Shown here: piece after piece, positions 3,781-44,135 of the stretch
How positions within the stretch are numbered: the first letter of the stretch is position 1
Layout: each line of letters begins with the position of its first letter
NCBI RefSeq assembly: GCF_012489685.1
Contig: NC_080043.1
Coordinates: 34,119,987 to 34,183,986 of the forward strand
From: Lotus japonicus
Lineage: Eukaryota > Streptophyta > Magnoliopsida > Fabales > Fabaceae
DNA length: 64,000 nucleotides
Direction: 5' to 3'
Position numbers and translations under genes: made by a program
Notes under the pieces: generated by a model
The model's input: only the letters and a program-made list of their open reading frames with translations
Databases searched by the model: none
What the model was told of the DNA's origin: nothing

Positions 3781-3878
3781 ATTGGTTATGGATGGGCTAA
3801 TCTGCATCCTGAGGTGTAGAGCAATAATTTCTTGTATCTAGTCCTTGGGATGCAGATTATTTCTTCCTAGTTATCAAT
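3781..3878 (+). ncRNA. MIR2111: MIR2111 precursor, hairpin 1 (copy A)
   Basis: This is a microRNA precursor. The 5p arm at 3798-3818 begins TAATCTGCATCCTGAGGT and ends GTA, while canonical miR2111 ends TTA, so there is one change near the 3' end. The 3p strand at 3841-3861 begins GTCCTTGGGATGCAGATTA and pairs with the 5p arm with the usual 2-nt offset; the loop is 22 nt. The lower stem continues with ATTGG against TCAAT. miR2111 is a conserved plant miRNA; in Lotus and Medicago it moves from shoot to root and silences TML-type Kelch F-box mRNAs. The next hairpin begins about 65 bp downstream. Confidence 0.9.
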
Positions 3879-3943
3879 TTAAAACCGTGTAATCAATGAG
3901 ATTATTTCCATTGGTCCAATGCTTCCTGTAAGAGTCTGTATAT

Positions 3944-4042
3944 ATTGGGTCAGGATGAGGTAATCTGCATCCTGAGGTTTGGAGCAATATCTTTCTTGTA
4001 TCTAGCCCTTAGGATGCAGATTACCTCTTCCTTATCACCAAT
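3944..4042 (+). ncRNA. MIR2111: MIR2111 precursor, hairpin 2 (copy A)
   Basis: The mature arm at 3961-3981 matches canonical miR2111 except for the last base (G instead of A). The 3p strand at 4005-4025 begins GCCCTTAGGATGCAGATTACC, shortened by one base relative to pairing expectations only at the loop side. The loop is 23 nt. The stem extends well below the duplex: GATGAGG faces CCTCTTC and ATTGGG faces CCAAT. It probably shares a primary transcript with hairpin 1, because only about 80 bp separate the hairpin 1 star strand from this stem. Confidence 0.92.
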
Positions 4043-4984
4043 GCAAAACATTTCAATTAATTTGATATGTGTAACATTCTTTTTATTCAATATGTCTTTA
4101 CTTTTGTATATTTATATTTTACTAAATTTCTTAGTTATATTATTTTTCACAAGGCAACATTTTGTGAGAACCGGTGAATACAATTCTTTTCGAAATTGAG
4201 CAAAAAGTACCTCTGATCTAGATGTGGGAGTGAAAGGCTAAGAGCTTGGTTGTATGATGTACGTCATTGGTGAAGCACCGCGGGAGAGATACCTGCAGAA
4301 GATACTCTGACACATAAATCAACTCAAGATCATAGAAAAAATAGAAGAGTATATATTGAGAAAAATGAGTAATGCTTATGTAATTAATGATCAAACATGT
4401 ATTTATAGAGTTTAATATGAACTATGAAAGAACTTAATCTTAGTAAGGCTATCATGAATAACTTTTGAGATTATGACAACACTTGGGTCTTCGTCTAGCA
4501 AGGTACTTGACGAGGTAGAGCCCCGCTTTGGTCAATTTGACCGAACAGCAATACATTCACTTGACAGTGAATCCTTTAGGCTGACCAGAATAATATTGGA
4601 TCTTATGGCCATTTGACCGGAACAACCATTGAAGAAAACATCTTGGGCCTGAGATTTTCGCATCTTATATATTTATGATTTATCAATTGGCCAAAGTTAA
4701 AATTTCGATCATTAAACGCATATGGCAGTGTGTTCCTCATGTTGGAGCTTTTCTCTCCGTACAATAGGATATTTTGCTGACTGAAGAGCTCGTCTGAACG
4801 TCTAGGTTCCTATTTCCATCGCTAGTTGAGGTGATTTGAAGATCTTTTGGTCATCTTCTGTTTCCTTTAGGTGTTGCACGGCTAGAGGAAACTCTACCTT
4901 CCTCTATTAGTGTTTTTTTATATAGTCCTTTTCACCGGTTAAGTCTCTCCCTGAGCTAGTACCAAGGGTGCTCATGAACTCTCC

Positions 4985-6063
4985 AATGAGTTGAAATACA
5001 TGATGCTACAACTAGAGTCCGACCCTATTAAGGGTCTACATACTTCTAAGAAAACCTTGGTGGGCAAGATCCTCACAGATAAGCCCCTGAATAAAAATAC
5101 AATGGAAGAAATTATTGCCAAGGCTTGGGGCTTGGAGAATGAAGTGAAAGCATCTGATCAGGGTGTCAATGTTATTATGTTTAGCTTCAACACTCGTGAA
5201 GCCGCTAAGAAAGTCTTTGAAGAGGCCCCTGGAATGTCATGAGGCATATGCTTAGCCTCCAAACCTGGGTTCCACAACCCTCCACCTAAGAGCTTGACTT
5301 CAATCACATACAGTGTTGGGTCTAACTCCATGGCCTCCTCTTGGATACCATATCCACGAACAATGTAGTCAAGATAGGGTAACTCATAGGTGAGGTGAAG
5401 GAAGTCGAAAACCCATACGTTGAAGGTCACTTAGTGAGAACTTTCCATCGAGTTAGAGTTAACCATCATGTCAAAAAACCCTGCTCATTGGGTTGTGGAT
5501 CCCCAGACGTGACCTTCCAAAGAGATGGATCTTCGTCACGTATGAAAAGATCATTGACTACTGCTTTAATTGTGGGATGATAGGGCATGATCAAGAAAAC
5601 TGTACTAGACCAAAAGTGATGGGAATCCTTGACCCAACCAAACCTAGGTCTGGACCCATGCTTGGAGTGACTCAAGCAAGGTCGCTCACGACCATTTTCA
5701 CACAAAAGGAAAGATTGGTAATAGAGCAGAAAAAACGAGCTCGGGACTATACCCCCCTTGGGTCATCTAGCCCACCACCCAAGAGGTCAACGTAGTCATG
5801 TCTAGTCTCTCTCAAGGAAGCAAGGCAGGAGGAGCTTTGGTAGAGGAACTAGCATGGAGAGGGACCTAGAGGATAACGACGAATTGTTGCCTCAACGATT
5901 AGGAAGCTTGGCAAATCAGAGTGGAGCTTCCTATCCTAGAACTAACCTTGGTGTGGTCAGCCTGGGCAACTGCCCCATAGCTACGAATAATGCCAAATCT
6001 AACAGCTTTGGCCTACAGAATTACGAAGCTAGGGAGAAAAGACATAAAATGAAAAGTTCTTAA
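4985..6063 (+). pseudogene. DUF4283/CCHC zinc-knuckle (LINE ORF1-like) pseudogene, copy A
   Basis: Pieces in different frames carry the plant LINE-ORF1 type order. First comes a DUF4283-like part (LVGKILTDKPLNKNT near 5,056-5,100, then AWGLENEV and FSFNTREAA to about 5,230). Next comes the link with VENPYVEGHLVRTFHRVRV (5,401-5,460). Then comes a CX2CX4HX4C knuckle, CFNCGMIGHDQENC, near 5,557-5,600, followed by a basic, proline-rich tail. At least two frameshifts and a stop separate them. No reverse transcriptase follows, so this is not a complete LINE. Copy B has the same gene with its own further damage. Confidence 0.75.
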
Positions 6064-8337
6064 CCTAAAATACATCATTTTCTTAATATTCTTAATATTA
6101 TAATTACTAAGATGCAATTGGATTTAAACTTAATAAAATTATTTTTTATGTTCAAAAGTAATATTTTAGCGCTAATAAATTTAAATCAATGAGAATAAAT
6201 TTTATGTCTCATCGTAATTCTTGACATTGTTAGCTACAAATTAAGAGGAAATTGAAGCACAATATGAGAAATCATCTTTATTATTGAGAACTTAAGAGTG
6301 AGTAAAAATAAATAATAATATTAATAATATTTATAATAATAACAATAAGTCATGCATTGGATGAAAAAAAAGAAACTGTTGAGAAGTATATCAGTGAAAG
6401 AACTCATACGTACATGTTGTTTTTCGAAAACTGAACTATTATTGGATTCATAAAAAAAGATGAGAATAACCTTTCCCAACTAAGGAACCAAAGTTCAAAC
6501 TAAAACACAAAATGAAATACTACACGTCTACAGCCTACACGACAAACACAACAACAAAATAGAATAACAACTCCAATTGTTCTAAAAAGGATAGACAAGG
6601 CACCCATTAGCAAGAAGGATGGAACAAGGCAAACAACCCATAAAAAATATATTCATATCTCCTCTCATGCTACAACAGTACGAGATAACCTCTCAACACT
6701 GCACTGATATTGAAATTCAAGTTCCCTTAGAACAGATGTCCTACGCGATGCTGGGACAACATATTCGACAATCAACTAACAATGATAACAATAACTTAAA
6801 AGCATAAGTAAACAAGACACAAGAATTGTTAACCCAGTTCGGTAAAACTTCACCTACGTCTGGAGAGTTTGCACCAAAAGAAAGGAAATCCATTATTTCA
6901 AGATTCAGGAATTACAGACACTAATGAACACCACAGTTCATAGTTCACTTCCTAATCTACCCAGTGTATTTCTACTTAGTATCCTAACCTAAGTATGAGA
7001 GCCCCTCTCACTTACTCTCAATCACTGCCACAGTGATTGGTAATACACAATCAACAATCAGAGTTTGAAGAATCAAACAACACAGAACACAACTTTGCTT
7101 TATAGAATCAGTGAGCAAAGTTTATTCACAAGTAACAAGGACAAAGAACAATGAACAATCCTAAAACACTTGATCTCTCTCAATTAGCTTCCGTCGTCTT
7201 CACGTTTTAGGTCTTTATCCTTTTATATCCTTCAGCAGCGGAAACATAAATGCTGGGGTTAGCTTGGGCTGAGGAAACAAATTGCAACAACAATTCAAAC
7301 AAAACGCAATCTCCAAAAGATCTTGTTGCGTTTTGCACAAGTAAAGATAGAAACAAATCTTCAATCAAAGATTGTTTCAACAATTAACAACCCACAATTA
7401 AAACCCTTTTGGTACAGCTACTTAAACCTCAAGTAACTATAAAAACGTATCTGCAGCAAATCTTCAAGGGCCCACAAATACATTCCAAGAAGAGGATTGA
7501 TGTCCTAGCAACACAAAGTCAGATGCCACGACATCGGCTTCGACAACCAGTTGTTTTTGACAAAATGCAAGACAACAAAGTAACAACAGATATCATTGTC
7601 AAAACAAAGTTACTAGAGACTCAAGTTAGATAATTTGAAGGAACAATGCTCCGGTGAGCATTGATAGAAACTTGTCAATTCATAGGGTCCAAAACTTCAA
7701 GGAGTGTTGAAGTTAAAAAAAATAAATTGAACTAAGGATTGGAGAATAAATTTGCGAATTTGAGGGAAGAAATAAATTGCCTTAAATGAAAAACAAACAC
7801 AAAAGTGGAGGACGTTATGTTTACTAGTAACTCTTTGTAGCCATTGTCGTAATAATAGATGTTAGACATTTTAAGTGTTTAGTAGTAATATGTCCGAACT
7901 TTATTCTGAATTACAAATTGCTATCTAATTCTACATATGAAAATAAAACAAGATAAAGTTGTTTAATCTATGATATACATTTAGCCTAACTATGAAGCTT
8001 CGATTTAGGCACTATTACTTTGAACCCTTCTAGAGTTCCTCAAACCCATCAGTCCTGTCTTCAAATCCATTAACTAGTTTAGAAGGTGGACTGGTGTCTC
8101 TAATCATGTATAATTGCCTCTGGTCTTGGGTGAGTACTCACTCTTGAACGTGGCAACGCGTCTTTGACCAAGAAAGCTTTGAATTGAATGTGACTTTGAG
8201 TAACCTTGAATTGGATTGATCTGAATAACTTAGATCTTCATGAATCTTAAGATCATCTTTAGGCTCAGATGCAATGTTATTAAACTCGACTCTGTGATTG
8301 ACTCGGCCAAGGTACTGGATTATTGATTCAACCGATC
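6064..8337. other. Gene-free stretch with retrotransposon-like debris
   Basis: No supported gene. From about 6,685 to 7,600 the sequence differs entirely from copy B (33,905-34,240). It contains phrases common in plant Copia LTRs, such as TTAACCCAGTTCGG and CACCTACGTCTGG near 6,828-6,865, so it may be LTR debris. The rest is shared with copy B and unremarkable. Confidence 0.35.
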
Positions 8338-8547
8338 AAGTGAGAGTAATGTTTATTATGAGAGATGAGAGCATTATATTGTGACTGTTTGATTTGACAT
8401 CAATGGTCAATATTAAAACATAAAGTCACATGATTTTTTTAAAAAGTCACATGACCATTAATTAGAATTTAATCTTAACCACTCATGTTAGATCAAATGG
8501 TCACGATTTAGTGCTCTCATCTCTCATAATAAACATTGCTCTCACTT
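8338..8547. mobile_element. 210-bp MITE with long inverted ends (copy A)
   Basis: The first about 36 bases (beginning AAGTGAGAGTAATGTTTATT) are the inverted complement of the last 36, which end AATAAACATTGCTCTCACTT. The 210-bp length is the same in copy B, so it was present before the duplication. It encodes nothing. The target duplication is unclear, so I do not assign a superfamily. Confidence 0.75.
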
Positions 8548-8568
8548 AATACGCTCCACACACACATA

Positions 8569-8586
8569 TATATATATATATATATA
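8569..8586. repeat. AT dinucleotide microsatellite
   Basis: A run of alternating A and T directly right of the 210-bp MITE. The same place in copy B (about 35,205-35,224) has a run of a different length. Confidence 0.7.
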
Positions 8587-8849
8587 AAAACATTTTCTTA
8601 ATTGGTTTAGTAGTATATCTTTACGTTTATCCGAGTTTGACTGGCTCGTGCTGAGTTTGACCAGTTTGATAGCATGTCTGATCCAACTTAATGATCGGAC
8701 CGATCACATGCCCAGATCAAGGTCGGACCGGCTGGCCCGGTCCGACTTTGAGTGTTTCTCATGTTAAGTTCAAACGCATCATATCGCTTTAAAATCTAAT
8801 TTTGATCAATAACAATTTTTGTATATATAGAGAAGCACTTCGCTGAAAT

Positions 8850-9970
8850 CTAAGCTTCTTAATTAATTTGAATTTTAGGATTTATTCTATTATGAATAAA
8901 GGACTTCAATGTCAATCTATCCTAAAGATAAAGATTCAAATCTGCAAGACTGTCTGGCACACATGTGACACAAGCTAAGCCACATCCACTTTTGATCGTT
9001 TAATGTCAGCTCGTCATTCAGAAAAGTTAAAGACAAATTTCAAAGAGTCAAAGATAAAGTCAGAATGCAACCAGCTGCTACGGATTCAAACGAGATCACG
9101 TGAAGATATTCTCTTTCCTTGAAGCACGCTGACTAGCGAGGAAAAGTACAACATGTCAACAACAAATTTCCAAATTGTCTCATTTCTGAGAAGTAGCCAA
9201 AGTCTATTGTCACCTACTAGCTGACAAGCCTCATCTTTTCGGAAAAATGACAGACTTAAACAATAGCATGCATTTAATGCATATACCAACCGAAGCCATT
9301 TGAATCAACGGATGGATCTATCTCACAACAGCCAGAACAACAGTTGGATTTGTCACAACGGCTACAACAAATGCAAGCAAGTATTTAAGGCGATTCTGAA
9401 GAAAGAAGAGTAGAAGAGTTATGATCGAAAGAACAAGAACACCAAGCATTCATTCCCTCATTCTTCTAAGCATTCAAAGCTCTTCTAGTTCACAGAATCC
9501 TAAGAATCAGAACTCTCTAAGAATCTAGATCCTTAAAGAGTCGAATCTCTTCATTTATTTCTCTCTAAGAATCAGAACTCAGTGATCCAAAGTCATATCT
9601 GTACCAAAACACTTAGAGTTCCAGTGCCATAAATTCTCTACTAACACTCTTGTAACAAGATAATCTTTGTAGAGTCAAACGATCTTGTGAAGATTGTAGG
9701 AGAAGTCCTGGAGAATACTTGTATTGGAGAAGTCCTTGATACTTGCTAGTGAAAAATTTGGTGGTGGCCAAGTACTAGACGTAGCCCATCGTTTAAGGGT
9801 GAACCAATATAAATCTGTGTGTGCTGATCGTCTAATAACTCTGTTTACATTTCCGCTGCACTAAACATTTACAAAAAGTTTTCAAAAACATATATTCTTT
9901 TCGAAAAACAAAGTTTTAAAAGAACACAATTCAAACCCTCCTTTCTTGTGTTATTTACTTACATCTCACC
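8850..9970 (+). mobile_element. Probable Copia-type LTR remnant (copy A)
   Basis: The stretch reads like an old LTR: a polyadenylation-like zone, CATTTCCGCTGCACTAAAC near 9,850, and an end of the type ACAATTCAAACC...TTTCTTGTGTT near 9,925-9,952, which is common at the ends of plant Copia LTRs. I cannot define both termini or a target-site duplication, and no internal region is attached. Copy B has the same sequence interrupted by a second solo LTR. Confidence 0.35.
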
Positions 9971-10736
9971 TCAAACTTCTCCATGTAAGTCTTATCCGCG
10001 TGACCTATAATTAACTTGAAGCTTGAACTATGATGCTTTCTCGACCTTCAACATTAAATTAGAGTTTGAGCGGTTCATGCCGAATTTGATAAAATGTCTG
10101 CTCCAACTCAATGGACCGATGATCATATGTCGGTCATAGTCGAACCGGTCGGACCGGTCCCAATTTGGGTATTCTCGAACTTTTCCATGTGAGTTTTATA
10201 CGCATGGGCTCGAATTGACTTCAAGCTTGAACTATGATGCTTTCTGACTCCTCGAACCATCAACATTAAATCAGGTTTTAAGTTAGTTCTTTAGATTCTC
10301 ACCTTTGACGTAATTCACCAAGCAAACTTCCTTGAATATGCCTTCAAGGTAACCACATTAGTTGTGCATTTTGACATTAGCCCATGGTTAACGATCGTGA
10401 TATTCTAATTTTAACAGGAGAGGAACAATTATAGACAGATTCACCTTGGCCAAGGTGGGGGCATCAGCCCCCACTTAACTTTCCAAAAATTCAACAACAA
10501 TATACTTTTTTTTTAACAAAAACAACAATAATATACTTGATTATGAAGATTGTGGGTTATATGTTGCCCCCATGTAATAAATATAGCCCCACACTACCAT
10601 TTATTTATCAGTAAAGTTGAACCTTGCACTCTTTTATTTTGTTTTCTATTGTGTGTTGTCTATTAGCTATTCAAATCCTTTTATCACTTCCTTAAGTTTT
10701 TTGCCTAAAAGCCACAACACCATGATTCAAAACATA

Positions 10737-10973
10737 GGTGTCCACTAGGGTGGATAACTTTTTTTTTTGGGTCCACCGGTGCTCCATGGACATTTTAGAC
10801 TTTACACTCAGGGTTTTTTTATACTTTTCCCCTTCTCTCCTTCTCCCTCTCACCCCAACCCTTGTTCTCTTCCTCGCACCTTCATTCTCGAACTCGCTAA
10901 AACCTTGATCTAATGGTGATTAATGATGGAGCACTGGTGGACAAAAAAAGAGTTGCCCACCCTAGTGGGCACC
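10737..10973. mobile_element. 237-bp internally deleted MULE-type element (copy A)
   Basis: The terminal inverted repeats begin GGTGTCCACTAGGGTGG and end CCACCCTAGTGGGCACC. They are flanked by a perfect 9-bp target-site duplication CAAAACATA (10,728-10,736 and 10,974-10,982), the length expected for Mutator-like elements. The copy B orthologue at 38,745-40,307 has the same flanks but is 1,563 bp, so most of the interior was lost here after the duplication. Confidence 0.88.
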
Positions 10974-10982
10974 CAAAACATA

Positions 10983-12864
10983 AACCCAAGTCGCCAACCT
11001 TTTTTCCCTTTCTTCTTTCCTTCATATCGAAGGGGGAAATTTCCCCCACAACATTTTCATAAATTTTATGAAGAGATACAAACTTTAACATGGGAAACAT
11101 GAAAAATTTCACAAGAGAAGATCATAATCCAGTGTTATCAAGTTACAAGAGGACCTAGTAGAGTAGCTTGACTGGTTAATTCAAAAATCTCAAGAGTTCG
11201 ATATGTATTAGATGATCCTCCTCCTCATGATTGTAGGGAAGAGAGTTTCTTTCACGAGTACGGTCTTAATTTAGAGTTTTTGTTATGTACGAAAAAAATT
11301 TGGTGTTTTTGTTTCTAGGCCTTTTACCCCTCCTTTTGACAACAAAAATTTGTATTTTGACAAAAAAATCACATATATTTCCCCTACAAGGTAAAACTTC
11401 TAGATCCTTCAATGCAGTATATATTCAATAAAGTGATGACACCGGCGCTGGGAACTTCATTTCTTTTTATGGACACCTGTAATTGGCAGAGAATGGTCCT
11501 GTAACCTGCATACCAACCATGTTTTATGCTCAATATCATTGTTATTCTTATCAAATTGGGATTCTATACCTTTCAATTCAAATCAACTTTAAGAATAACA
11601 TTCCTATGGTCCTTAAGTACAGGACATGGGCTACAAAAGAGATGTACTGGCTTAATTCTGCAGCTGATATATATTATATGAATGTTGCATTATTGGAAAT
11701 CTTGCCACTTGCAAGGAAGCTACAAATTTGTCATTTGTGGCATTTATTCCTATGTAAGAAACCGAAAGTGCATGCATGAAATAAATGATATGAGGAAAAC
11801 TATTTTCTGCCACCTGAGCAATTTGCTTCTCCTTTTATAATATGTATGCTTCATGTTTATGTCATCCTGATAAAGGTGATGTGGACCTTTGGGAACAACT
11901 TACAGAAGCATAGGCTATCTTTGATCATATACCGAACACGTATATACACCAAGCACATAAATGTACATGAGAACTTTTCATACTATAATGCCTCTATTTC
12001 AGCTTCTCAATACTGGATTTCCTTACACAACTTCAGGAGGGGTGTTTTTAAAAGAAAATCAGATTATAGGATACAACAGATAGCTAGATTGTAATGACTT
12101 CACTTAAGATCTAGAATACATTGTGAAATTTTACTACCAATGATTTTTACTTGATCGAACGCATTAGTTCAATGAATGAATATATTAATTAGTTAGAAAT
12201 TTAATATAATCATTAATGACATGTCCTCACTTAATAGCTTAAACTTTCAGAATAGTTAGTTTTTTTTTTGACAAAGAATAGTTCATGACATGGTTTTAGA
12301 GTCTATTCTTATTCTAGATTTAATATTTGGCCACCCATAGCTATCCAAAAATTAACCTGGCCCAGTATGGATTTCCTGTGCAATTTAACAATGATCCAAA
12401 CATTCAGGCCCGAGCGTGAAGAGGTATGTTGAGATCCCACATAAAAGAGACAATTTTCAATGCAAGAGTAGAACTTACAAAGGCTGAGACAATTTTCTTT
12501 TCATGAGTAAGCTTTTAGGGTAGAGTTACACACTAGCTCAATTCATGATGGTATTAGAGCCCCTAATAAAATGAATTTAAGCAAGGGGTTCATGACTCAG
12601 ATAATACATATCTTTAAGATTCACATACAAGTGAAAAAGGGACAATTAGGAGCTTTTTTGAATGGCTAAACTGCCAAAGGAATAGAATGTATGCTACTGC
12701 TAAAAGACAGTGGGGGCTTCCTTTCTTTTCAGTTCATCATCATCTACTGTGTGCAGGGATGGACCCAACTAGGGGTAAAATAGGGTGGTCGCCACTAAAA
12801 GAAACTTTTTCCTTAATAGAATAGTACGCCCTTTTGAAAATTTTTAAACTGCATCTTTCAACTA
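10983..12864. other. Gene-free stretch upstream of the third MIR2111 hairpin
   Basis: No supported gene. Bases 11,485-11,635 resemble 2,175-2,335, for instance in the words ATGGTCCT, TTTATGCTC and TAAGTACAGGACA-like motifs. This suggests the hairpin 3 locus and the hairpin 1/2 locus derive from one ancestral locus including its upstream DNA. Confidence 0.45.
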
Positions 12865-13012
12865 GTTTTTTTTTTTTTTTTTATAAGCAAATGTTAGTGG
12901 TTAGTTGTTAGTAAGTTAGAAAATCCCTTCAAATTTCTCTTTCAGGATTAGAACCCTGGACCTTCCCCTCCCCAACCCTTATGTCCCCTAACTCTTACCA
13001 CTTGGACTAACT
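12865..13012 (-). mobile_element. tRNA-derived SINE (copy A only)
   Basis: Read on the minus strand it has an A-box-like AGTCCAAGTGGTAAGAG, a decayed B box GGTTCTAATCC, the body AACTTACTAACAACTA and an A-rich tail (the T run at 12,866-12,882). Copy B lacks it at 43,530. The same family occurs at 58,104-58,260 and about 41,285-41,397. Confidence 0.75.
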
Positions 13013-13387
13013 ACCAGTGATTACTAATTTTGCTTATTGTGTTAACTTTCACCCCTTACTTATTTCTGGTTCTGTCCTAGAATGTGAGTACTGAAAGCAC
13101 GCAAGTTCTACATTATGATTTAGAGTTACATTTCAAATTTAATGCTGAAGATTCTTACACTAAAGTAATAGGCTAATAGCTTCAAACATATACTTGGTAT
13201 TCCATACCAATTTATATAACCTGCAAGGAACATTTCATCAAAGGAACATGTAAATTTTGAAAGAACATCATTTCTGCTGAAAGGGAGAGTCCAACTTCAT
13301 GATTGGGGTAAGAACAGGTATCAGATGGACCCAACATATCATATCACTTCTACCAGAATATTACTAACTTTTAAGTCTTTAAGAGAC

Positions 13388-13395
13388 TATAAATA
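13388..13395 (+). promoter_or_regulatory. Candidate TATA box for MIR2111 hairpin 3 (copy A)
   Basis: TATAAATA lies about 135 bp before the hairpin and is conserved in copy B at 43,897-43,904. The spacing suits a short pri-miRNA leader. No transcript data are available here. Confidence 0.45.
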
Positions 13396-13523
13396 TAAAC
13401 CAAGTAATGACCATCAGCCTCATTCCTACTGACTACAACTACAAGTACTCTTCTTACAGACTATTTGTTCATTTAATTTTCATCTGTCACTTCCATTGGT
13501 TCAATCCCTCATGGAAGAATCAG

Positions 13524-13631
13524 TGTTGGGTCAGGATCACGTAATCTGCATCCTGAGGTTTAGAACAATATATTTTGTTTTGTATCTAGTCCTCGGGACG
13601 CAGATTACGCCTTCCTTACCAGCAGTCAATA
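13524..13631 (+). ncRNA. MIR2111: MIR2111 precursor, hairpin 3 (copy A)
   Basis: The 5p arm at 13,542-13,562 is the exact canonical miR2111 sequence: TAATCTGCATCCTGAGGT followed by TTA. The 3p strand at 13,589-13,609 begins GTCCTCGGGACGCAGATTA. Its ACG replaces the usual ATG, giving one A:C mismatch opposite position 9 of the mature strand. The loop is 26 nt. The locus stands alone, about 9.5 kb after the hairpin 1/2 pair, with its own candidate TATA box. Upstream and downstream similarity to the pair points to an old local duplication. Confidence 0.94.
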
Positions 13632-16407
13632 ACATGTTATTCAATTTGCTTAAGTTTTTTCACTAATTGTTAAGTATGCATTGCATGTCTGTATTGGATT
13701 GAACTAGTTGCCTTTTGTACTTCTGAGGCTCTTGCTGTCAAGTTTGAGAAAACATAATTTTTCAGTTTTGTCAATTTAAGCAACATTACATGCTGCAAGG
13801 GTTCAGCTTCAGCCCTTCATAGAGCATAATGCATGTGACGTGGCCTGAATTTGTTAAAATGGGTGAGATCAAGCATCCTCTGGAACAATATAAGAGTAAT
13901 CAAATTTAAAGATCTTACTAAAGTTTTTATGAGCTTACAAAATTGGTAGACTATGGAAGAGTGATCAAAGATTGATGAAATTGACCCGAAATAGTTGGAA
14001 AACCCCCTTGTTTTTATGTAGGTTCGTACATTGAATTTGTTCTGAAATTAATCTGTTCCTGAAAGAGCGTAATATGTTTTTGCATATGAAAATTAGGGAA
14101 AGCCAGTAGTTTCAAATGGAGATACCTATAGTATATGTGATGATTTATGAAACAACATTTGTGTTCTAGTTTCCTGAAGCACTCCGTAGTTTCTTCTTTT
14201 AGTTCCAAAGTTCTTCTCCCTCTTGTAGATTACGATTAAAAATCACATCACAAGGCAGCATTTTGTCAGATTGGGTGAAGACCATTCAAGAAAACATCTT
14301 GTGCCAGAGAAGGAACGGAACGAAATAAATTATAACTTTGGTATTCCTTTATTACCCTTGTCTTTAAAGTTCTCACGATAATATCTTTTGTGAAAGATTA
14401 AAAAACAAGGATAAAGAAGTAATTTCATAATTATAAAAATAAACTTAATGTTGATTCAATCATCCGAAATTGGGAGGAAATAAAAATACGTAGATACTAT
14501 ACAATGCAGTGCGACGGAATGGATTCCATCATGTTCTTTTCATTTTGTTCCATTCCGTTGCATAATTTTTTAACAAATAAGTAGATATAATGTGATTCCA
14601 TTACATGCCCCTCTCGATCCATTCCATCACCTGCATGCCATTAATCCAAATATAGCCGCCGGCTTCTGGTTTAGGCTCCTCCATTGAAAGATCCTCTAAC
14701 TGACTAGTTTGTGTGACCTTTGATGTCAATGTTGGTCCTTGTTTTGGCACATCCAAAAAGTCCTCCAGTCCACTAGTCAAGGTAGACTTCGATGTCAAGG
14801 AAGCTCCAAGGAGGCTCAAGGCCTGCACCACAAGGGAGGGGAGAGAAAAGAAAGAAAGATCAAAATGTTATAAACAAGAAAAAGAATTATAAATGTAGTA
14901 ATAACAGTCAGTCACCTTACCTCTGCCTCCCCAATGCGTACCACCTTCACTTCAATATCATCAAGGGGAAGGCTTAATTCTTTCAAATATGAAATGCAAG
15001 AAATAGCAGACAGCAGTTTCACTTTTAGATCATCTCCTACACCATATATTGCAGGTCTCCTCACAAATCCTACACTACCTTCTTTCAATCTGCTAGGGGA
15101 TCTTGGGTCCAATGCGGTTAAGGTTCTTAGATTTGAAACTAATCCCTTGGACTTAGAAATAACTCCGCTCTTTACCTCTATGGCTACTTGTTCTGATTGA
15201 TAATATTTTAAAAAAGAATTACAAACATTCCTTGCTTCAAATGTACCATTACCATAATAATAGCCAGGGGGTTCTACTTCTACATCTGGAATGTTGAGGG
15301 GCTGACTTGGACAACCAAACTGCGGTGCCAATCCAGGATTGAGTAACAAAGAGCACGAGTCTGTACACCATGAAGAGTCCAAGCTCTCCACGCTCTTATA
15401 CAAATTATCAACACATCCAACAAAAGATTGACCACTCACCACCCAAAAGCTTTACAATGGACCCCAATGGTATGGTAAGGAGGCTAAAAATGAAGTCAAC
15501 AAAATCTGCATTGGCTTCAGCAAAGATTATCTTGTTCTGAGATTTACTTCGCACTACCTTAACATCCATTTTACTGTCACCAATGTTAGCCCTTGCCCTA
15601 ACTGCTGATGCAAACAGGTTTTGAGGGTTGTCTTTCTTCTTGGAGTCACTTCCCAAAATTGCATTTGTCAGAGGCTCACGAGAGGTTAAGGTGTACATGA
15701 GGATCTTCAATATCTAAACATCAAAAGGACAGATGGGAACTTTTAGTCAAGATAACAAACAAACCACACACGTATAACTCTCCATTTTTGTTATTTTTCT
15801 GTTTTTTTAGAATTTCACTGATAAGATGAAATCACATGATATACAAGATGTTAAAACCAAACAATAATAGTACAACAAAGACTCACGAAGTAATCCATCT
15901 TAATATCAAGAACTAACCAAGATTGTGCCTACTAAGTACTAACTATATATATTGATATTCGCCAGTCTCGTTTATAGGACATCAAGAAGTTTAGAACCAA
16001 TTTATGCAGAGAACTGAGCAATGCTTAGGCAGAGAGAGCTACTTGTGTCGAAATTCAATTTTGTATGAGAATAATGGGGGCGGCAATAACTGATCTGTTG
16101 AGCAGTCAATGACTCGATCATGGAGGTCATATGGTAAGGATAAAAGTGAAGGGTCCAGTCAGAGAAGTTAGTTAGCTAAAGCGGATATAAGTTAAACTAA
16201 TTTGTTAGATGATTGTAGAAGTTAAAAACAATTACAGAAGTTACTTCATTAAGGGCAGAGGCCTCATTCATTCTTTTTAGCATCAAGTAATCAGAGCCAT
16301 GACTCAGTTGTAAGGGAAAACCCTTGGAGGAGACATCTTTCTCTTTGTTTATGCTGAGTTTCATTCATCAATGAAAACCATATTTTCTTTTACCCTCATT
16401 CCTTTAA

Positions 16408-26990: not shown

Positions 26991-26997
26991 AATGCAG

Positions 26998-34192: not shown

Positions 34193-34982
34193 AAGATTGT
34201 GCGTCCTTTAAGTTTGAAATTGTTTTGTGAAAAAAAAAAAGTTACTAGAGACTCAAGTTAGATAATTTGAAGGAACAATGCTCCGGTGAGCATTGATAGA
34301 AACTTTTCAATTTTAATAAGGTCCAGAACTTCAAGGAGTGTGAAGTTAACAAAAATAAATTGAACTAAGGATTGGAGAATAAATTTGCGAATTTGAGGGC
34401 AGAAATACATTGCCTTAAATGAAAAACAAACACAAAAGTGGAGGACGTTATGTTTACTAGTAACTCTTTGTAGTCATTTTCGTAATAATAGATGTTAGAC
34501 ATTTTAAGTGTTTAGTAGTAATATGTCCGAACTTTATTCTGAATTACAAATTGCTATCTAATTCTACATATGAAAATAAAACAAGATAAAATTGTTTAAT
34601 CTACGATATACATTTAGCCTAACTATGAAGCTTCGATATGGGCACTATTACTTTGAAACCTTCTAGAGTTCCTCGAACCCATCAGTCCCGTCTTCAAATC
34701 CATTACCTAGTTTAGAACGTGGACTGCTGTCTCTAATCGTGTATAATTTCCTCTTGTCTTGGGTGAGTACTCGCTCTTGAGCGTGGCAACGCGTCTTTGA
34801 CCAAGAATGCTTCGAATTGAATGTGACTTTGAGTAACCCTGATTTTTTTTTTGTCTTGGATTGATCTGAATAACTTAGATCTTCATGTATCTTAAGATCA
34901 TCTTTAGGCTCAGATGCAATGTTATTAAACTCGACTCGGTGATTGACTCGACCGAGGTACTAGATTATTGATTCAACCGATC

Positions 34983-35192
34983 AAGTGAAAGTAATGTTTA
35001 TTATGAGAGATGAGAGCATTATATTGTGACCGTTTGATTTTACATCAATGATCAAGATTAAAACACAAAGTCACATGATTTTTTTAAAAATTCACCTGAT
35101 CATTAATTAGCATTTAATCTTAACCACTCATGTTAGATTAAATGGTCACGATTTAATGCTCTCATCTCTCACAATAAACATTACTCTCACTT
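34983..35192. mobile_element. 210-bp MITE with long inverted ends (copy B)
   Basis: Orthologue of 8,338-8,547, of the same length and with a few substitutions in the ends. It was therefore present before the segmental duplication. Confidence 0.72.
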
Positions 35193-36373
35193 AATATGCT
35201 CCCTATATATATATATATATATATTTAAACATTTTCTTAATTGGTTTAGTAGTATATCTTTACGTTTATCCGAGTTTGATTGGCTCGTTCCGAGTTTGAC
35301 CAGCTTGATAACATGTCCGATCCCACTTAATGACCGGACCGATCACATGCCCAGATCAAGGTCAGACCGACTAGCCCGGTCCGACTTTGAGTTCAAACGC
35401 ATCATATCGTTGTAAAATCTAATTTCGATGAATAACAATTTTTGTATATATAAAAAAGCACTTCGCTGAAATCTAACCTTCTCAATTAATTTGAATTTCA
35501 GGATTTATTCTATTATGAATAAAGGACTTCAACGTCAACTTATCCTAAAGATAAAGATTCAAATCTACCAGACTGTTTGGCACACAAGTTGCACAAGTTG
35601 AGCCACATCCACTTCTGGTCTGTTTAATGTCATCTCGTCATTCAGAAAAGTTAAAGACAAATGTCAAAGCGTCAAAGATAAAGTCAGAATGCAACCAATT
35701 GCTAAAGATTCAAAGGAGATCACGTGAATATTTTCTCTTTCCTTGAAGCACGCTGACCAGCGAGGAAAAGTACAACATGTCAACATCAAATTTCCAAATT
35801 ATCTCACTTCTGAGAAGTAGCCAAAGTCTATTTCCACCTACTAGCTGACAAGCCTCACCTTTTTGGAAAAAGGACAGACTTAAACAGTAGCATGCATTTA
35901 ATGCATCTACCAACTAGAACCATTTGAATCAACAGATGGATCTATCTCACAACGGCCATAACCACGGTTGGATTTGTCTCACAAAAGCTACAACAAATGC
36001 AAGAAAGTATTTAAGGAGATTCTGAAGAAAGAAGAGTAGAAGAGTTAAGACCGAAAGAACAAGAACACCAAGCATTCATTCCCTCATTCTTTTAAGCATT
36101 CAAAGCTCTTCCAGTTCACAGCAGAAATTTTTTTATTGTCAAATCCTTGACCACCAAATCTGTGAGAAAAGAGAGAGAGAACCTAGATCCTTAAAGAGTC
36201 GAATCTCTTCATTTATTTCTCTCTAAGAATCAGAACTCTTGAGTGATCCAAAGTCATATCTGTACCAATTACAAAACACTTAGAGTTCCAATGCCATAAA
36301 TTCTCTACCATCACTCTTGTAAGAAGAGAATCTTTGTAGAGTCAAATGATCTTGTAAAGATTGTAGGAGAAGT

Positions 36374-37673
36374 TGATGACCCGGGATTAAATGCTATTTT
36401 TCTATATAATTTTCATGCATTTTAATATATTATTTAGGATATTTTAGTCATTTTAGGTCACTTTAGGATTATTCCATGCATTTTATTATTTTTATGTGTT
36501 TTTAGTATTTTCTATAATTTTTATGATTTTTATTTATATTTTATTAGGATTTACTTAAGTTATTTGGGTTGGTGATCTTATTCTATCTTCTAGTTAATCT
36601 TTTCTATTAGGTTTTACTTATTTTCCCTTATTGTTATTGTTATTTTAGGAGAAGATGTGGAAACAAGGAGCAAATCAAGGGAGAAAGATATGAATTTCGA
36701 AACCTGGAACAATCTGGATTTATTTGCGCCAGTTCTGCACCAATTTCCTCTTGCATTTCACGCAGACGCGCCAAGGAAGTAGCTGCTGGAACGTTTTGCG
36801 CGAGTTCCTTCACAAAGTTCGCGCATTTGCGCGTAATATCAGCAAGACTCTATTTAAGTGTGTTTTTAACCTAGTTTAGACATCTTTTCACGTTGAAGCA
36901 TTGGGAGAGACTTTTAGAGGCAGAGCTCTGAGTTCTTTAGGGTCCCCTACAGGTTTCTATTGTAGTTTTGATGTTTTGCTATCTTTTTCTTGAATTGTTT
37001 CCTATGACTATGATGAACTAATCCTCTTTTGCATTAGGGATATATGAAGTTACATCTTTGATTATGTTTGGATTCGTTTCGATTTTTATATGAATGACTA
37101 TATTTCGTTCCAGAATTTCTCTCTTGTTTTGATTGTTATCTACTGTGCATAGATTGTGTTGCTTGATTCTATACAATTGGTTGATAGGAACTAGGGATCT
37201 AGAGAGGAATTGGATTTTGGTCTCTACACCTTAGGGATAAGGGTAGCAATTAATCTCTGATTGTCTGATGTTGAACTAAATCTCTAGTTAATTAGGATTA
37301 GGTACTAAGGGATTAGCTATCACTAATTAACTAGAAGGAGAACTTGACTAAGGAATTAGTAAGTAATCACATAGACATAACACCTTGAACGGGTTTAGTC
37401 GAATTCATATGGAATCGGAGCGGATACAAGCATAACGAGGGTAACGGATTCAATTCCCTAGTGCAGCTTTTCTCCCAAAGTTTTCAAATCAACAACCGTT
37501 TATTTGTGTTTCTTAATTTCTTTTCGTGATAGTTACAATCAATCAATCCTCTATTTTTATCTTTGTTTTTTCGTCCTTACAACTAAATTGGTAAATTTAG
37601 AAGTAAACTCACACAATCCTTGTGTTCGATAATTAAAACCCCGGGCGAAACTATACACTTGCAGTTTGGCACA
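36374..37673 (+). mobile_element. Ty3/gypsy-type solo LTR nested in an older LTR (copy B only)
   Basis: About 1.3 kb interrupt sequence continuous in copy A at about 9,710. It begins TGATGACCCGGGATTAAATG and ends near AACTATACACTTGCAG...GGCACA. It contains the leader-like features of gypsy LTRs (TATTTAAG near 36,852; CATTGGGAGAGACTTTT; AACCCCGGGCGAAACTATAC near the end). Flanking words GAAGT and AAAGT could be a 5-bp target duplication with one change. No internal domain is present. The exact right end is uncertain by about 10 bp. The surrounding 35,460-37,980 is the copy B version of the older LTR remnant. Confidence 0.6.
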
Positions 37674-38744
37674 TTAAAAGTCCTGTAGAATACTTGTAGG
37701 AGAAGTCCTGTAGAATACTTGTAGGAGAAGTCCTGAAGAATACTTCTATTGGAGAAGTCCTTGATACTTGTAAGTGAAAATCTTGGTGGTGATCAAGTAC
37801 TGGACGTAGCCCATCGTTTAAGGGTGAACCAGTATAAATCTGTGTGTTGATCGTCTGATAACTTTGTTTACATTTCCGCTGCACTAAACGTTTACGAAAA
37901 GTTTTCAAAAACATATATTCTTTTCGAAAAACTAAGTTTTAAAAGAACACAATTCAAACCCCCCTTTCTTGTGTTATTTACTTACATCTCACCTCAAACT
38001 TTTCCATGTAAGTCTTACGCATGACCTAGAATTAACTTGAAGCTTGAACTATGATTCTTTCTCGACCTTCAACATTAAATTAGAGTTTGAGCGGTTCATG
38101 CCGAATTTGATAAAATGTCTGCTCCAACTCATTGGACCAAACTGATCACACGTCGGTCATAGTCGAACCAGTCGGGCCGGTCCCAGTTTGAGTGCTCCTC
38201 GAACTTTTCCATGTGAGTTTTATACGCACGGGCTCGAATTGACTTCAAGATTGAACTATGATGCTTTCTGACTCCTCAAACCATCAACATTAAATCAGGT
38301 ACTAAGTTAGATCTTTAGATTCTCACCTTTGACGTAATTCACCAAGCAAACTTCCTTGAATAGGCCTTCAAGGTAGCCACATTAGTTGTGCATTTTGACA
38401 TTAGTTGTGCATTTTGACATTATCAACACATAGGCCATGGTTAACGACCGTGATATCCTAATTTTAACAGGAGAGGAACAATCATAGACGAATTCACCTT
38501 GGCCAAGGTGGGGGCCGAATTTTCCAAAAATTCAACAACAATATACTTGATTATGAAGATTGTGGGTTATATGTTGCCCCCATGTAATAAATATAGCCCC
38601 ACACTACCATTTATTTATCAGTAAAGTTGAACCTTGCACTCTTTTATTTTGTTTTCTATTGTGTGTTGTCTATTAGATTCATATCCTTTTATCACTTCCT
38701 TAAGTTTTTTGCCTAAAAGCCACAACACCATGATTCAAAACATA

Positions 38745-40307
38745 GGTGCCCACTAGGGTGGACAATTTTTTTTTTGGTCCACCGGTGCTCCATGGACATT
38801 TTAGACTTTACACTCAGGGTTTTTTAGACTTTTCTCCTTCTCTCCTTCTTCCTCTCACCCCAACCCTTGTTCTCTTCCTTTGACCCCTTCTTTCTCGAAC
38901 TCGTTGAAACCTTGGAAGACTCTCTCCCTTCCCCTACTCCACTCCTCCACAAGCTCAGAGACGCTTCCTCACAATCCCTCATGTCCACTCCATGGCCTTC
39001 CCGCAAGGACGAGCCCGACCCTTTTTCTCCCTTCTCACCACCCTGCGTGCGCTTACAGTGGCTGTTGCTTCCGCGCCGTTGTCAGAACCGGAATCGAGGT
39101 TGACAGTGAGGATGGCGTATTTGCCTTGAGATATGATCTGAGTCGTTCCTTTGATGACGATGTTTCCGAACTCGTCGATGACGTGGCCGACAGAGCCCTG
39201 GGCGACCTCGATTTTGGTCTTCGATCCAGTGCTGAATTCATGCAGATCGTGACGGTAGGTCTCGATTATGGATTCGGATTTGGCTGTCAAGGTTTTGATC
39301 AGGCCGCCAAAGTTCCAAGTGTCGCCGCCTTTGTTGCCGGATTCGGGTTTTGGAGGATCTGGGTCGTCTACGAAAACGATATTGAAGAAATTCATGACGG
39401 AAACGCTCCGTTTGGGGAACAACCTAATGTTGTTGCAGGGCTTGTGGTTGCGACGGTTTTGGCTTTCATAGATCTGGAAGGATTTTGGCAAGAAAAGACG
39501 GCATAGTAGGGTGGGTTTCAGAATTGGGTGTCAAGTTCGTAGGTGAAGCGATGGTGGCAGCCGCGCTGGTCGTACATGGTGATAGCCGCAGTGGCACGAG
39601 ACACGACAGCGAGGAGCGGCTCAGTGGGGGTTCTGGTCGCGGCGCGATGACTGAGGGTCTGGTGCGAAGAAAGCCCCACCACATTCATTGTTCAGACTTC
39701 AAACACCAATCCCAATTTCTTTCTTCCCTTCTTTCCCTTCGATTTTGTATGGTTTATGGGTTTGGGGTTTGTGAGAGTAGGAGCTGACGAGTCCTGGATT
39801 GGAGGTTTGGATCTGGGTTGCATTTGAAGATGGTTGTTGCTTGGATTTTCTATTAGTTTTTATGAATATATTGAGGATTGATGATGTTACCAAATTCATA
39901 AATTTTCTATTATGATGTTGCGTAGAGTTTAGAGAAAGGTATATCAAATCTGGATGGTGATGATATTACCGGTTGGAACCTGAGCACGTAGAGTTTAATG
40001 GTGAATGATGATGTTAAAGAAAAGCCTCAGCATGCTTACAATTTAATGCTTACCAGCTCTAATTTTTTTTAAAAACGTAGATGGTGATGATGTTGAATGA
40101 TGATCCACATGAAACATTTTGATAGTGAAATGAAAAGCTCGTAGAAACTTACATAGAAATAGAGAGAGATGAGTCTGTCATTTACATTTTTACCTTTTTA
40201 TTATTCAATAAATCATGACCATTTAATTAAAGAATATTCCAAGATGGTAAGATCTAATGGTGATTAATGATGGAGTATTGGTGGACAAAAAAAAAGTTGC
40301 CTGCACC
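38745..40307. mobile_element. Pack-MULE carrying a BSD-domain gene fragment (copy B)
   Basis: 1,563 bp, flanked by the same 9-bp duplication CAAAACATA as in copy A (38,736-38,744 and 40,308-40,316). The left inverted end begins GGTGCCCACTAGGGTGG. The right end has lost about 10 bases of its repeat. No transposase. The interior (39,080-39,400, minus strand) is host-derived coding sequence, so this fits a gene-capturing Mutator-like element. The copy A orthologue kept only 237 bp. Confidence 0.85.
38979..39491 (-). pseudogene. Captured fragment of a BSD-domain protein gene
   Basis: A 170-codon minus-strand frame whose middle (about 39,080-39,400) reads MNFFNIVFVDDPDPPKPES, WNFGGLIKTLTAKSESIIE, TYRHDLHEFSTG, AQGSVGHVIDEFGN and TQIISQGKYAIL. 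This is the conserved N-terminal part of plant BSD-domain-containing proteins. The BSD domain itself, further toward the C-terminus in the parent, is not included. The fragment lies inside the MULE, between its inverted ends, and has no counterpart in copy A. The frame is open, but nothing shows that it is expressed as protein. Confidence 0.7.
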
Positions 40308-40801
40308 CAAAACATAAACCCAAGTCGCCAACTTTTTTCCCTTTCTTCTTTCCTTCATATCGAAGGGGAAATTTCCCCCACAACATTTTCATAAATTTTA
40401 TGAAGAGATACAAACTTTAACATGGGAAACATGAGAAATTTCACAAAAGAAGATCATAATCCAGTGTTATCAAGTTAAGGGGCGGACCTATAGCATGATG
40501 AGGAGGTTCAGTTGAACCCCCTGAAAAATATAAATTTACACTTAACCCCTTATATAATTTTTTTTTGAATCCCCTAAAAATTTTAAATTGTATTAGTAGT
40601 CTAAATTTTGCACATATTTACACCAAAAACCCAAATTCTACTTCTTTTGCCATTATTTCTCTTTCCCCTTTCATATTGATGTGTCTTTTGCAATCCCTAA
40701 ATTCATGGCTTAGTTTGGGGCAGAAGGGCTTCAAGAAAGATTGGAACGTGTTCTTCAACGCCCTCTTATGGAACTTGAATTTCTAGCATAATGTAGTTGC
40801 G

Positions 40802-41120
40802 GTGATTTTTACTTGTGTATCTTATTTGATTCCCCTCTTTGCGATCAGAGTGAGTGGGAATCTGAGTTCTGCTCAGGATGCAGAAATCATTGCTGGGAAG
40901 TGGCTGAAAGTTTGGCTTGAGATTGGTGTAGTTCTGTATGCAATTGGGCCTTTTGAAGCACTATTAAGCAACAACGCCTACCAGATTTTGGGCATGGCAG
41001 AGATAGGGATTTTACCCAAAATTTTGAGGAGTTTGGTCTAAATGGTTCAATACACACCTTGGGTGGGCATACATTATCTCCTCTGCAATTATTTTGTACA
41101 GTGGGCATGCTTTTGGAATT
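40802..41120 (+). pseudogene. Captured polyamine/amino-acid permease fragment
   Basis: An open stretch reads [49 protein letters not shown] and [12 protein letters not shown]. This corresponds to the middle of plant APC-superfamily polyamine-uptake-type transporters (LAT/PUT group). After a stop the homologous WFNTPWVGI-type segment appears in a shifted frame (bases about 41,036-41,085). Start, end and most membrane segments are missing. It was probably captured by the surrounding hAT element. Confidence 0.7.
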
Positions 41121-41284
41121 TTCTTTCATTTCCTTGGTTGTGATGAAAGTTACCGATGATAAAGCGAAAGAAAGAGGAAATTTTTCGGAGAGAGAATGAT
41201 TTGGTGTGCAAGTGGGTAGAAAGGGGTAAGTTTGGAAAAGAAAAAAAAAACTGAAAAGGTTAGCATTAATTAGAATTTTGAGGG

Positions 41285-41397
41285 GGGAAGGGTAAGGGAA
41301 CGAAGAGATTTGCAGGGTGAAGGGTCAGTGTTCGAATCCTGGCGAATGAACTAATTTACAAACAATTAACAACTAACATTGACCTATAAAAAAAAAT
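41285..41397 (+). mobile_element. SINE fragment inside the hAT element
   Basis: Has a B-box-like TGTTCGAATCC (41,330-41,340), the family body AACAATTAACAACTAACATT and an A tail after ACCTAT. The 5' third is too diverged for a clear A box. Confidence 0.55.
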
Positions 41398-43896
41398 TAA
41401 AATTTTGAAATTGAGGTACACATGTCAATAAAATGCGGTTCGTAGGATATTTCAGCCATCTGGTTTCGGAGGAAGAATCATTTTCCTTTCTCTGTTATGA
41501 ATATTGTGAAGAATAGGTTACGTAACCGAATGAGAGATACATGGATGAACGACTGTTTAATTACTTACATTGAGTGTGATGTATTCAAGAACATTGACTA
41601 TGAGCTTATTATTCAACGATTTCAAAATATGAAATCACGTAAAAGACAATTATGACTTGTATAATTTATTAGTATAAACATATTAAAATTGTTTTTGATT
41701 ATATTTTTACCGATGTTTTCGTTTGAAAAATTTGAACCCCTGAGGTCCTGGATCCGCCACTGATCAAGTTGGTTATTATACTCTACAAGAGGACCTAGTA
41801 GAGTAGCTTGACTGGTTAATTGGAAATTCTCAAGAGTTCGATATGTATTAGATGATCCTCCTCCTCATGATTGTAGGGATGAGAGTTTCTTTCACGAGTT
41901 CGGTCTTAGTTTAGAGTTTTTGTTATGTACCAAAAAAACTTAAGTGTTTTTGTTTCTAGGCCTTTTACCCCTCCTTTTGACAACAAAAAATTGTATTTTG
42001 ACAAAAAAATCACATATATTTCCCCTACAAGGTAAAACTTCTAGATCCTTCAATGCAGTATATATTCAATAAAGTGATGACACCGGAGCTGGGAACTTCA
42101 TTTCTTTTTATGGAAACCTGTAATTGGCAGAGAATGGTCCTGTAACCTGCATACCAACCCTGTTTTATGCTCAATATCATTGTTATTCTTATCAAATTGG
42201 GATTATGTACCTTTCAATTCAAATCAACTTTAAGAATAACATTCTTATGGTCCTTAAGTACAGGACATGGGCTACAAAAGTGATGTACTGGCTAACTCTG
42301 CAGCTGATATTACATGAATGTTGTTTTATTGGAAATCTTGCCACTTGCAAGGAAGCTACAAATTTATCACTTATGGCATTTATTCCTATGTAAGAAACCG
42401 AAAGTGCATGCATGAAAGAAATGATATGAGGAAAACCATTTTCTGCCACCTGAGCAATTTGCTTCTCCTTTTATAATATGTATGCTTCATGTTTATGTCA
42501 TCCTGATAAAGGTGATGTAGACCTTTGGGAACAACATTACAGGAGCATAGGCTATCTTTGATCATATACCGAACACGTATATACACCAAGCACATAAATG
42601 TACATGAGTTCTTTTCATACTATAATGCCTCTATTTCAGCTTCTCAATACTGGATTTCCTTACACAACTTCAGGAGGGGTGTTTTTAAAAGAAAATCAGA
42701 TTATAGGATACAACAGATCACTAGATTGTAATGAGTTCACTTAAGATCTAGAATACATTGTGAAATTTTACTACCAAATTACCAATGATTTTTACTTGAT
42801 CGAACGCATTAGTTCAATGAATGCATATATTAATTAGTTAGAAATTTAATATAGTCATTAATGACGTATCCTCACTTAATAGCTTAAACTTTCAGAATAG
42901 TTAGTTTTTTTTTTGGACAAAGAATAGTTCATGACATGGTTTTAGAGTCTATTCTTATTCTAGATTTAATATTTGGCCACCCATAGCTATCCAAAAATTA
43001 ACCTGGCCCAGTATGGATTTCTTGTGCAATTTAACAATGATCCAAACATTCAGGCCCGAGCGTGAAGAGGTATGTTGAGATCCCACATAAAAGAGACAAT
43101 TTTCAATGCTAGAGTAGAGCTTACAAAGGCTGAGACAATTTTCTTTTCATGAGTAAGCTTTTAGGGTAGAGTTACACACTAGCTCAATTCAAGATGGTAT
43201 TCGAGCCCCTAATAAATTGAATTTAAGCAAAGGGTTCATGGCTCAGTTAATACATATCTTTAAGATTCACATACAAGTGAAAAAGGGACAATTAGGAGCG
43301 TTTTTGAATGGCCAAACTGCCAAAGGAATAGAATGTATGCTACTGCTAAAAGACAGTGGGGGCTTCCTTTCTTTTCAGTTCATCATCATCTACTGTGTGC
43401 AGGGATGGACCCAACTAGGAGTAAAATAGGGTGGTCGCCACTAAAAGAAACTTTTTCCTTAATAGAATAGTACTTAAATGTTGTTTTACCCCCCTCCCTT
43501 CTGAAAATTTTTAAACTGCATCTTTCAACTGGTGATTACTAATTTTGCTTAATGTGTTAACTTTCACCCCTTACTTATTTCTGGTTCTGTCCTAGAATGT
43601 GAGTACTGAAAGCACGCAAGTTCTACATTTAGAGTTACATTTCAATTTTAATGCTGAAGATTCTTACACTAGAGTAATAGGCTAATAGCTTCAAACACAT
43701 ACTTGGTATTCCATTCCAATTTATATAACCTGCAAGGAACATTTCATCAAAGGAACATGTAAATTTTGAAAGAACATCATTTCTGCTGAAAGGGAGAGTC
43801 CAACTTCATGATTGGGGTAAGAACAGGCATCAGATGGACCCAACATATCATATCACTTCTACCAGAATATTACTAACTTTTAAGTCTTTAAGAGAC

Positions 43897-43904
43897 TATA
43901 AATA
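43897..43904 (+). promoter_or_regulatory. Candidate TATA box for MIR2111 hairpin 3' (copy B)
   Basis: TATAAATA, orthologous to 13,388-13,395. Confidence 0.45.
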
Positions 43905-44027
43905 TAAACCAAGTAATGACCATCAGCCTCATTCCTACTGACTACAACTACAAGGACTCTTCTTATAGACTATTTGTTCATTTTCATCTGTCACTTCCAT
44001 TGGTTCAATCCCTCATGGAAGAATCAG

Positions 44028-44135
44028 TGTTGGGTCAGTATCACGTAATCTGCATCCTGAGGTTTAGAACAATATATTTTGTTTTGTATCTAGTCCTCGG
44101 GACGCAGATTAGGCCTTCCTTACCAGCAGTCAATA
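44028..44135 (+). ncRNA. MIR2111: MIR2111 precursor, hairpin 3' (copy B)
   Basis: The mature arm at 44,046-44,066 is exactly canonical miR2111. The 3p strand at 44,093-44,113 begins GTCCTCGGGACGCAGATTA, ends AGG where copy A ends ACG, and keeps the A:C mismatch opposite mature position 9. The flanks are near-identical to copy A, with GTATCACG for GGATCACG just before the mature arm. About 13 kb separate it from the hairpin 1'/2' pair. Confidence 0.94.

Follow-up and report, generated by a model that had tools for sequence, protein, structure and literature searches.

We analyzed a 64-kb stretch of DNA (contig NC_080043.1, positions 34,119,987 to 34,183,986; termed the window, 64,000 nucleotides [nt] in all) that carries six hairpins of the microRNA (miRNA) family MIR2111, arranged as a pair and a single hairpin, followed by a second pair and a second single hairpin. 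This stretch very probably represents a legume MIR2111 cluster of a known kind, in which a 2+1 unit was duplicated and the second copy probably adds less usable miR2111 than the number of its hairpins suggests. The dose of miR2111 governs the readiness of legume roots for rhizobia, so the identity of the precursors that really supply it is of importance for nodulation genetics and breeding. The locus lends itself to a natural comparison, with identical miRNA arms carried on steady versus eroded basal stems, and it cautions against reading a hairpin count as a dosage. In the following, A and B denote the two members of a pair and C denotes the single hairpin, and the numbers 1 and 2 designate the copy (Table 1).

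Six MIR2111 hairpins in the window

We scanned both strands of the window with the 21-mer that we take to be canonical miR2111, allowing at most 4 mismatches, and found 12 matches, six on each strand. The plus-strand matches are 5p arms, which start at the first base of each hairpin in Table 1 and show 0 or 1 mismatch, meaning that all six (6/6) hairpins possess a mature arm of the MIR2111 family. The minus-strand matches, with 3 or 4 mismatches, correspond to the 3p arms of the same hairpins. By chance, ∼2e-6 21-mers with at most 1 mismatch would be expected over both strands of 64 kb. The 5p and 3p arms paired into a stem-loop in 6/6 cases, with minimum free energies (MFE) of −40.7 to −57.9 kcal/mol and z scores of −4.6 to −8.0 (200 dinucleotide shuffles per hairpin), and the 5p arm lay within the stem, with 19 or 20 of its 21 bases paired in every hairpin. 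We found three 5p isoforms, each present twice, which end in GTGTA (A), TTTG (B), and TTTA (C). They differ exclusively at arm positions 19 and 21, away from positions 10-11, where miRNA-guided cleavage takes place.

We then built a covariance model from the six hairpins and ran it over the whole window with filters off. The model recovered the six plus-strand hairpins and, with lower scores, their minus-strand counterparts; it revealed no seventh or decayed MIR2111 hairpin in the window at an E value below 0.01 (next match, E = 0.028). A first-pass annotation made from the DNA letters had proposed six miR2111-type hairpins with these starts and had suggested folding each precursor as a check; the 21-mer scan, the folds (six of six stable), and the covariance model all agree with it. 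It had also described short loops of 22 to 26 nt. The loops are indeed short, but the range is 19 to 24 nt between the 21-nt arms, with the arm limits taken from the 21-mer scan.

No compensatory change was seen in the 33 pairs of the six-hairpin alignment, and the signal was no greater than in column-shuffled alignments, so that covariation speaks neither for nor against the hairpins. Rfam gave no match in the window at gathering scores. A permissive Rfam search of positions 3700-4100 returned six weak matches to other miRNA families, which were far under the gathering scores and which we rejected as generic hairpin matches. We also looked for PHR1-type P1BS sites, using a pattern that we presume to be the P1BS consensus, within 1.5 kb upstream of hairpins A1, A2, C1, and C2. 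A single site was found, at −1469 of C2, and direct phosphate control therefore receives no support.

Table 1 Positions of the MIR2111 hairpins, the two copies of the duplication, and neighboring features in the window, with basal pairs counted in the minimum-energy fold
Feature	Position	Strand	Basal pairs at 16/22/40/100 nt of flank	Remarks
Hairpin A1	3798-3859	+	6, 12, 0, 16	First of pair, copy 1; 5p ends in GTGTA; MFE −42.0, z −4.6
Hairpin B1	3961-4023	+	11, 14, 14, 16	Second of pair, copy 1; 5p ends in TTTG; MFE −57.9, z −8.0
Hairpin C1	13542-13607	+	9, 12, 12, 12	Single, copy 1; canonical 5p, TTTA; MFE −50.9, z −6.8
Hairpin A2	31085-31146	+	6, 14, 6, 6	First of pair, copy 2; isoform as A1; MFE −44.5, z −5.8
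Hairpin B2	31246-31306	+	8, 9, 1, 1	Second of pair, copy 2; MFE −40.7, z −5.5
Hairpin C2	44046-44111	+	6, 9, 11, 1	Single, copy 2; canonical 5p, TTTA; MFE −41.6, z −5.5
Copy 1 of duplication	1-23754			Left end may precede the window; interrupted by Copia element
Copy 2 of duplication	27729-47727			Has its own insertions
DUF674 gene, copy 1	14912-23797	-		Open blocks 14912-15451 and 23018-23797, split by Copia element; Pfam run on 14912-15448
Young Copia retrotransposon	16975-23051	-		Copy 1 only; RVT_2 Pfam match; inside copy 1 DUF674 gene
hAT-like insert	40477-41762			Copy 2 only
DUF674 gene, copy 2	45401-47757	-		Open blocks 45401-46183 and 47053-47757
Third, older DUF674-like unit	55664-59084	-		By similarity to the other two units

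An interrupted tandem duplication

Comparison of the window with itself (matches of at least 150 bases) showed that positions 1-17 kb and 23.1-23.8 kb match 27.7-47.7 kb. We realigned these regions in ten blocks (1-16975 and 23063-23798 versus 27729-47757, the last block being slightly extended) and counted 695 substitutions over 15409 aligned bases, i.e., 4.5%, for a Kimura two-parameter (K2P) distance of 0.047. The 2+1, 2+1 layout of the hairpins results from this interrupted tandem duplication, as the first-pass annotation had read it. The same annotation called the doubling recent, a term that holds loosely: for plant substitution rates between 6.5e-9 and 1e-8 per site per year, the K2P distance of 0.047 translates into ∼2.3 to 3.6 million years.

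The divergence is distributed unevenly. Positions 1-3052 differ from 27729-30746 at 40/2943 bases (1.4%), compared to 655/12466 (5.3%) in the remainder (Fisher test, p = 6e-25), and a stretch of 417 successive aligned positions ending at 14405 is devoid of substitutions. Such patchiness suggests gene conversion between the copies or several events.

Unchanged arms and unequal basal stems

We then compared the hairpins between the two copies. The miR2111 arms showed no change (0/126 aligned bases), against 96/2854 in the flanks. Random draws of six 21-base stretches were free of changes in 354/20000 cases (p = 0.018), which is modest evidence that the miRNA itself was retained in both copies.

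The basal stems gave a different picture from one hairpin to the next (Table 1). The ensemble-expected numbers of basal pairs with 40 and 100 nt of flank were, respectively, 14.1 and 10.9 for B1 and 3.5 and 3.2 for B2, 11.9 and 11.8 for C1 and 6.5 and 6.8 for C2, and 2.6 and 5.9 for A1 and 5.6 and 5.7 for A2. The steadiest basal stems are those of B1 and C1, with weaker counterparts in B2 and C2. Hairpin A is unsteady in both copies, and a weak basal stem is therefore not confined to copy 2.

To assign a direction to the changes in each hairpin, we took its two paralogs in the cluster as the outgroup, whose four rows amount in effect to two hairpins. In B, the first two gap columns merely reflect where the sequence was cut and were left out, and each 2-nt deletion of B2 was counted as one event. 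For hairpins B and C together, copy 2 carries seven derived events and copy 1 carries none (sign test, p = 0.016), and hairpin A contributed one event, derived in copy 1. Column 60 of A and column 23 of B could not be polarized. Four of the seven events fall in the basal stem, namely, a 2-nt deletion in the 5′ basal stem and column 98 of B2 and the substitutions at columns 18 and 91 of C2; two lie on the loop side and one lies beyond the paired part. The other 2-nt deletion of B2 is on the loop side, B2 has substitutions as well, and its two deletions are shared by no other row.

Contribution of copy 2 to the miR2111 supply

We propose that the ancestral unit consisted of a two-hairpin gene, A-B, with its hairpins ∼160 nt apart, and of a one-hairpin gene, C. 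A-B would probably be a single transcript, with C located 9.6 kb further on in copy 1, and the tandem duplication, which spans ∼20 kb in copy 2, would have copied this unit. We infer that hairpins of the cluster are transcribed and processed and that their product is mobile and acts on a target, TML mRNA; each working hairpin would be cut by Dicer-like 1, the processing enzyme, and would release miR2111. The miRNA would then move from the leaf phloem to the roots, lower TML mRNA, and permit nodulation, a step that we take from the literature, where leaf-made miR2111 is reported to act in this way in Lotus japonicus, Medicago truncatula, and soybean (PMC8321092; PMC7562733). After the duplication, the arms remained unchanged in both copies, whereas hairpins B and C of copy 2 lost basal-stem pairs. 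Copy 2 probably contributes less usable miR2111 than its hairpin number implies, because B2 and C2 lost these pairs. By analogy with the published loci, the precursors most likely to work are B1 and C1, the likely weak ones are B2 and C2, and A1 and A2 could belong to either class.

Okuma et al., citing work on Arabidopsis, state that the basal length below the duplex affects correct processing (PMC7562733). In the MIR2111-3 stem-loop of L. japonicus, loss of 12 bp adjoining the mature sequence is reported to lower miR2111 (PMC10700597). Among the leaf-expressed loci of this species, MIR2111-5 is described as having three to five times the transcript of the others, and its loss as cutting miR2111 to less than half (PMC7562733). 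This dominance in leaves makes the copy count a poor guide to output. Overexpression of MIR2111-2 and MIR2111-5 reportedly raised nodule number, and overexpression of MIR2111-4, in which the duplex sits at the hairpin base, left nodule number and TML mRNA unchanged (PMC7562733).

Several of our results weigh against a lesser contribution of copy 2. A1 and A2 drop basal pairs when the flank is widened (0 and 6 at 40 nt), C2 keeps 11 basal pairs at 40 nt, and the change at column 98 of B2 turns a G-C pair into a G-U pair, so that pairing is retained. The direction of columns 62 and 91 rests on a split outgroup, with the copy 1 base in 2/4 rows, and adding hairpin A to the polarized events gives 7 versus 1 (sign test, p = 0.07). 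Moreover, mature miR2111 was still detected from the overexpressed MIR2111-4 in L. japonicus, according to the same paper (PMC7562733), so a missing basal stem is no proof of an absent product. This last report would also fit a full doubling of dosage, in which all six hairpins are equally processed, the miR2111 supply is doubled, and nodulation competence is shifted. The first-pass annotation had expected the doubling to raise precursor dosage, with a possible effect on the systemic response. The arms do speak for it, being intact in all six hairpins, well paired, and unchanged between copies; A2 folds as well as A1, and the unsteadiness of the A1 basal stem itself may mean that such stems are tolerated. 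The inference is partly supported but unsafe, because two of the three extra hairpins (B2 and C2) carry derived basal-stem changes, and the inactivity of overexpressed MIR2111-4 on nodule number and TML mRNA, together with the lead of one locus in L. japonicus leaves, also argues against it. We consider a full doubling of dosage unlikely.

The origin of the hairpins and of the two copies can be questioned as well. An origin as inverted repeats formed by chance, or as transposon hairpins with a likeness to a miRNA, would be consistent with the lack of Rfam matches at gathering scores and of covariation among the six, but it would have to produce six exact or near-exact miR2111 arms where ∼2e-6 are expected and arms better conserved than their flanks, and we regard this origin as extremely improbable. 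An assembly artefact, with two alleles of one locus placed end to end, is another conceivable explanation. The low divergence of the first 3 kb would fit alleles of an outcrossing plant, but the rest of the copies diverged well beyond it, the window contains no N, each copy has private insertions and deletions, and the spacer between the copies (23.8-27.7 kb) has no match of at least 150 bases elsewhere in the window. Paralogous paired loci have also been reported from the L. japonicus Gifu assembly (PacBio, Hi-C), a point that is not independent if the window comes from the same assembly. We view an allelic artefact as very unlikely. Gene conversion between the copies, which would make the duplication older than the mean divergence implies, stands at about even chances: it would explain both the nearly identical first 3 kb and the 417 substitution-free positions, but uneven constraint or several duplication events could yield the same patchiness.

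Neighboring DUF674 units and insertions

Each copy terminates in a DUF674 gene (Table 1). The gene of copy 1 is split by the Copia element, whose long terminal repeats (LTRs) differ at 3/510 compared bases. This LTR retrotransposon is flanked by a five-base target-site duplication, AGACA, and the corresponding empty site is found in copy 2 at 47075-47079. The insert private to copy 2, for which hAT is the label that we assume, is bordered on both sides by ATCAAGTT, an eight-base target duplication present as one copy at the copy 1 site (11137-11144). The first open block of the DUF674 gene has 179 codons in copy 1 versus 260 in copy 2.

The covariance-model search of the window found no MIR2111 hairpin beside the third DUF674-like unit. 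In the second block, this unit is at a distance of 10.1% to copy 2 versus 14.4% to copy 1, and copy 1 has 73 private changes where copy 2 has 27 (p = 5e-6). The first block shows the reverse direction, with 4 changes private to copy 1 and 20 private to copy 2, and in this block the third unit shares more with copy 1 than with copy 2, as if by conversion. We had considered a clean reciprocal loss between the copies and dropped it: the two DUF674 blocks point in opposite ways, as if conversion with the third unit had occurred, and we do not claim such a loss because the first block reverses the pattern of the second. An uneven decay of the two copies, with the B and C basal stems steady in copy 1 and lost in copy 2 and the DUF674 gene open in copy 2 and both split and shortened in copy 1, is a tentative proposal that we hold to be possible rather than probable. 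If true, B2 and C2, the additional hairpins, would supply miR2111 weakly or out of phase even though their arms are perfect.

Other features of the window are as follows. An inverted repeat at 55900-56974 has arms of ∼180-208 nt that are 91-94% alike and 0.7 kb apart. It sits exactly between the matching blocks of the third DUF674 unit (55889 and 56975) and is probably an insertion private to this unit. A GC-rich block at 38914-40251 with a 183-codon open frame occurs in copy 2 and has no counterpart in copy 1, and neither of the open frames 38979-39530 and 59954-60604 matches Pfam or NCBIfam at E 0.001. A mitochondrial carrier fragment (26973-27233; Pfam Mito_carr) is located in the spacer that separates the copies.

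Comparison with published MIR2111 systems

A legume MIR2111 cluster of this kind, with its layout and its role, is already described. Okuma et al. (2020) report for L. japonicus seven MIR2111 loci with ten hairpins and three mature isoforms; apart from MIR2111-1, these mono- and polycistronic loci are described as lying in tandem pairs close to the chromosome 3 pericentromere (PMC7562733). In their account, MIR2111-2 and MIR2111-7 have two hairpins each and are 96% identical, and MIR2111-4 and MIR2111-6 have one hairpin each and are 93% identical. The authors already noted three atypical hairpins, F, H, and J, with the duplex at the proximal end (the base), J being the second hairpin of MIR2111-7 (PMC7562733).

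We compared the window with these loci by layout and identity figures. Like the reported L. japonicus cluster, the window has two-hairpin and one-hairpin loci in tandem (2+1, 2+1) and three isoforms, and a basal position of the duplex may be shared by some of the hairpins. Between the copies, the A-B pairs are 96.2% identical over 790 nt, a span modeled on the length of the published transcript (at two other limits, 95.2 and 96.3%), and the singles C1 and C2 are 93.4, 93.9, and 94.6% identical at three choices of limits, with gaps counted in all cases. The ranges of 95.2-96.3% for the pairs and 93.4-94.6% for the singles roughly match the published 96% and 93%, given that the limits were chosen and that MIR2111-4 and MIR2111-6 need not be the singles of the window. 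As to the duplex at the base, B2 fits J and C2 fits F or H in part, whereas C1 does not. Taken together, layout, number of isoforms, identities, and weak-stem hairpins make L. japonicus, the closest published match, or a near relative the likely source of the window. Two differences count against the likeness: the published hairpin counts, as we read them, amount to three paired units versus two in the window, and two atypical singles (F and H) are described, yet C1 folds with a good basal stem.

In M. truncatula, 18 hairpins are predicted for the miR2111 family (PMC4212123), and miR2111 is reported to act in nodulation via TML1 and TML2 (PMC11668588). The window resembles this system as part of a large legume MIR2111 family, a likeness by description and not by sequence. 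Arabidopsis has the same mature miR2111 family, but with two loci and a single reported isoform versus three here, and its F-box Kelch target, HOLT, is described as acting in lateral root initiation in this nonnodulating plant (PMC10700597).

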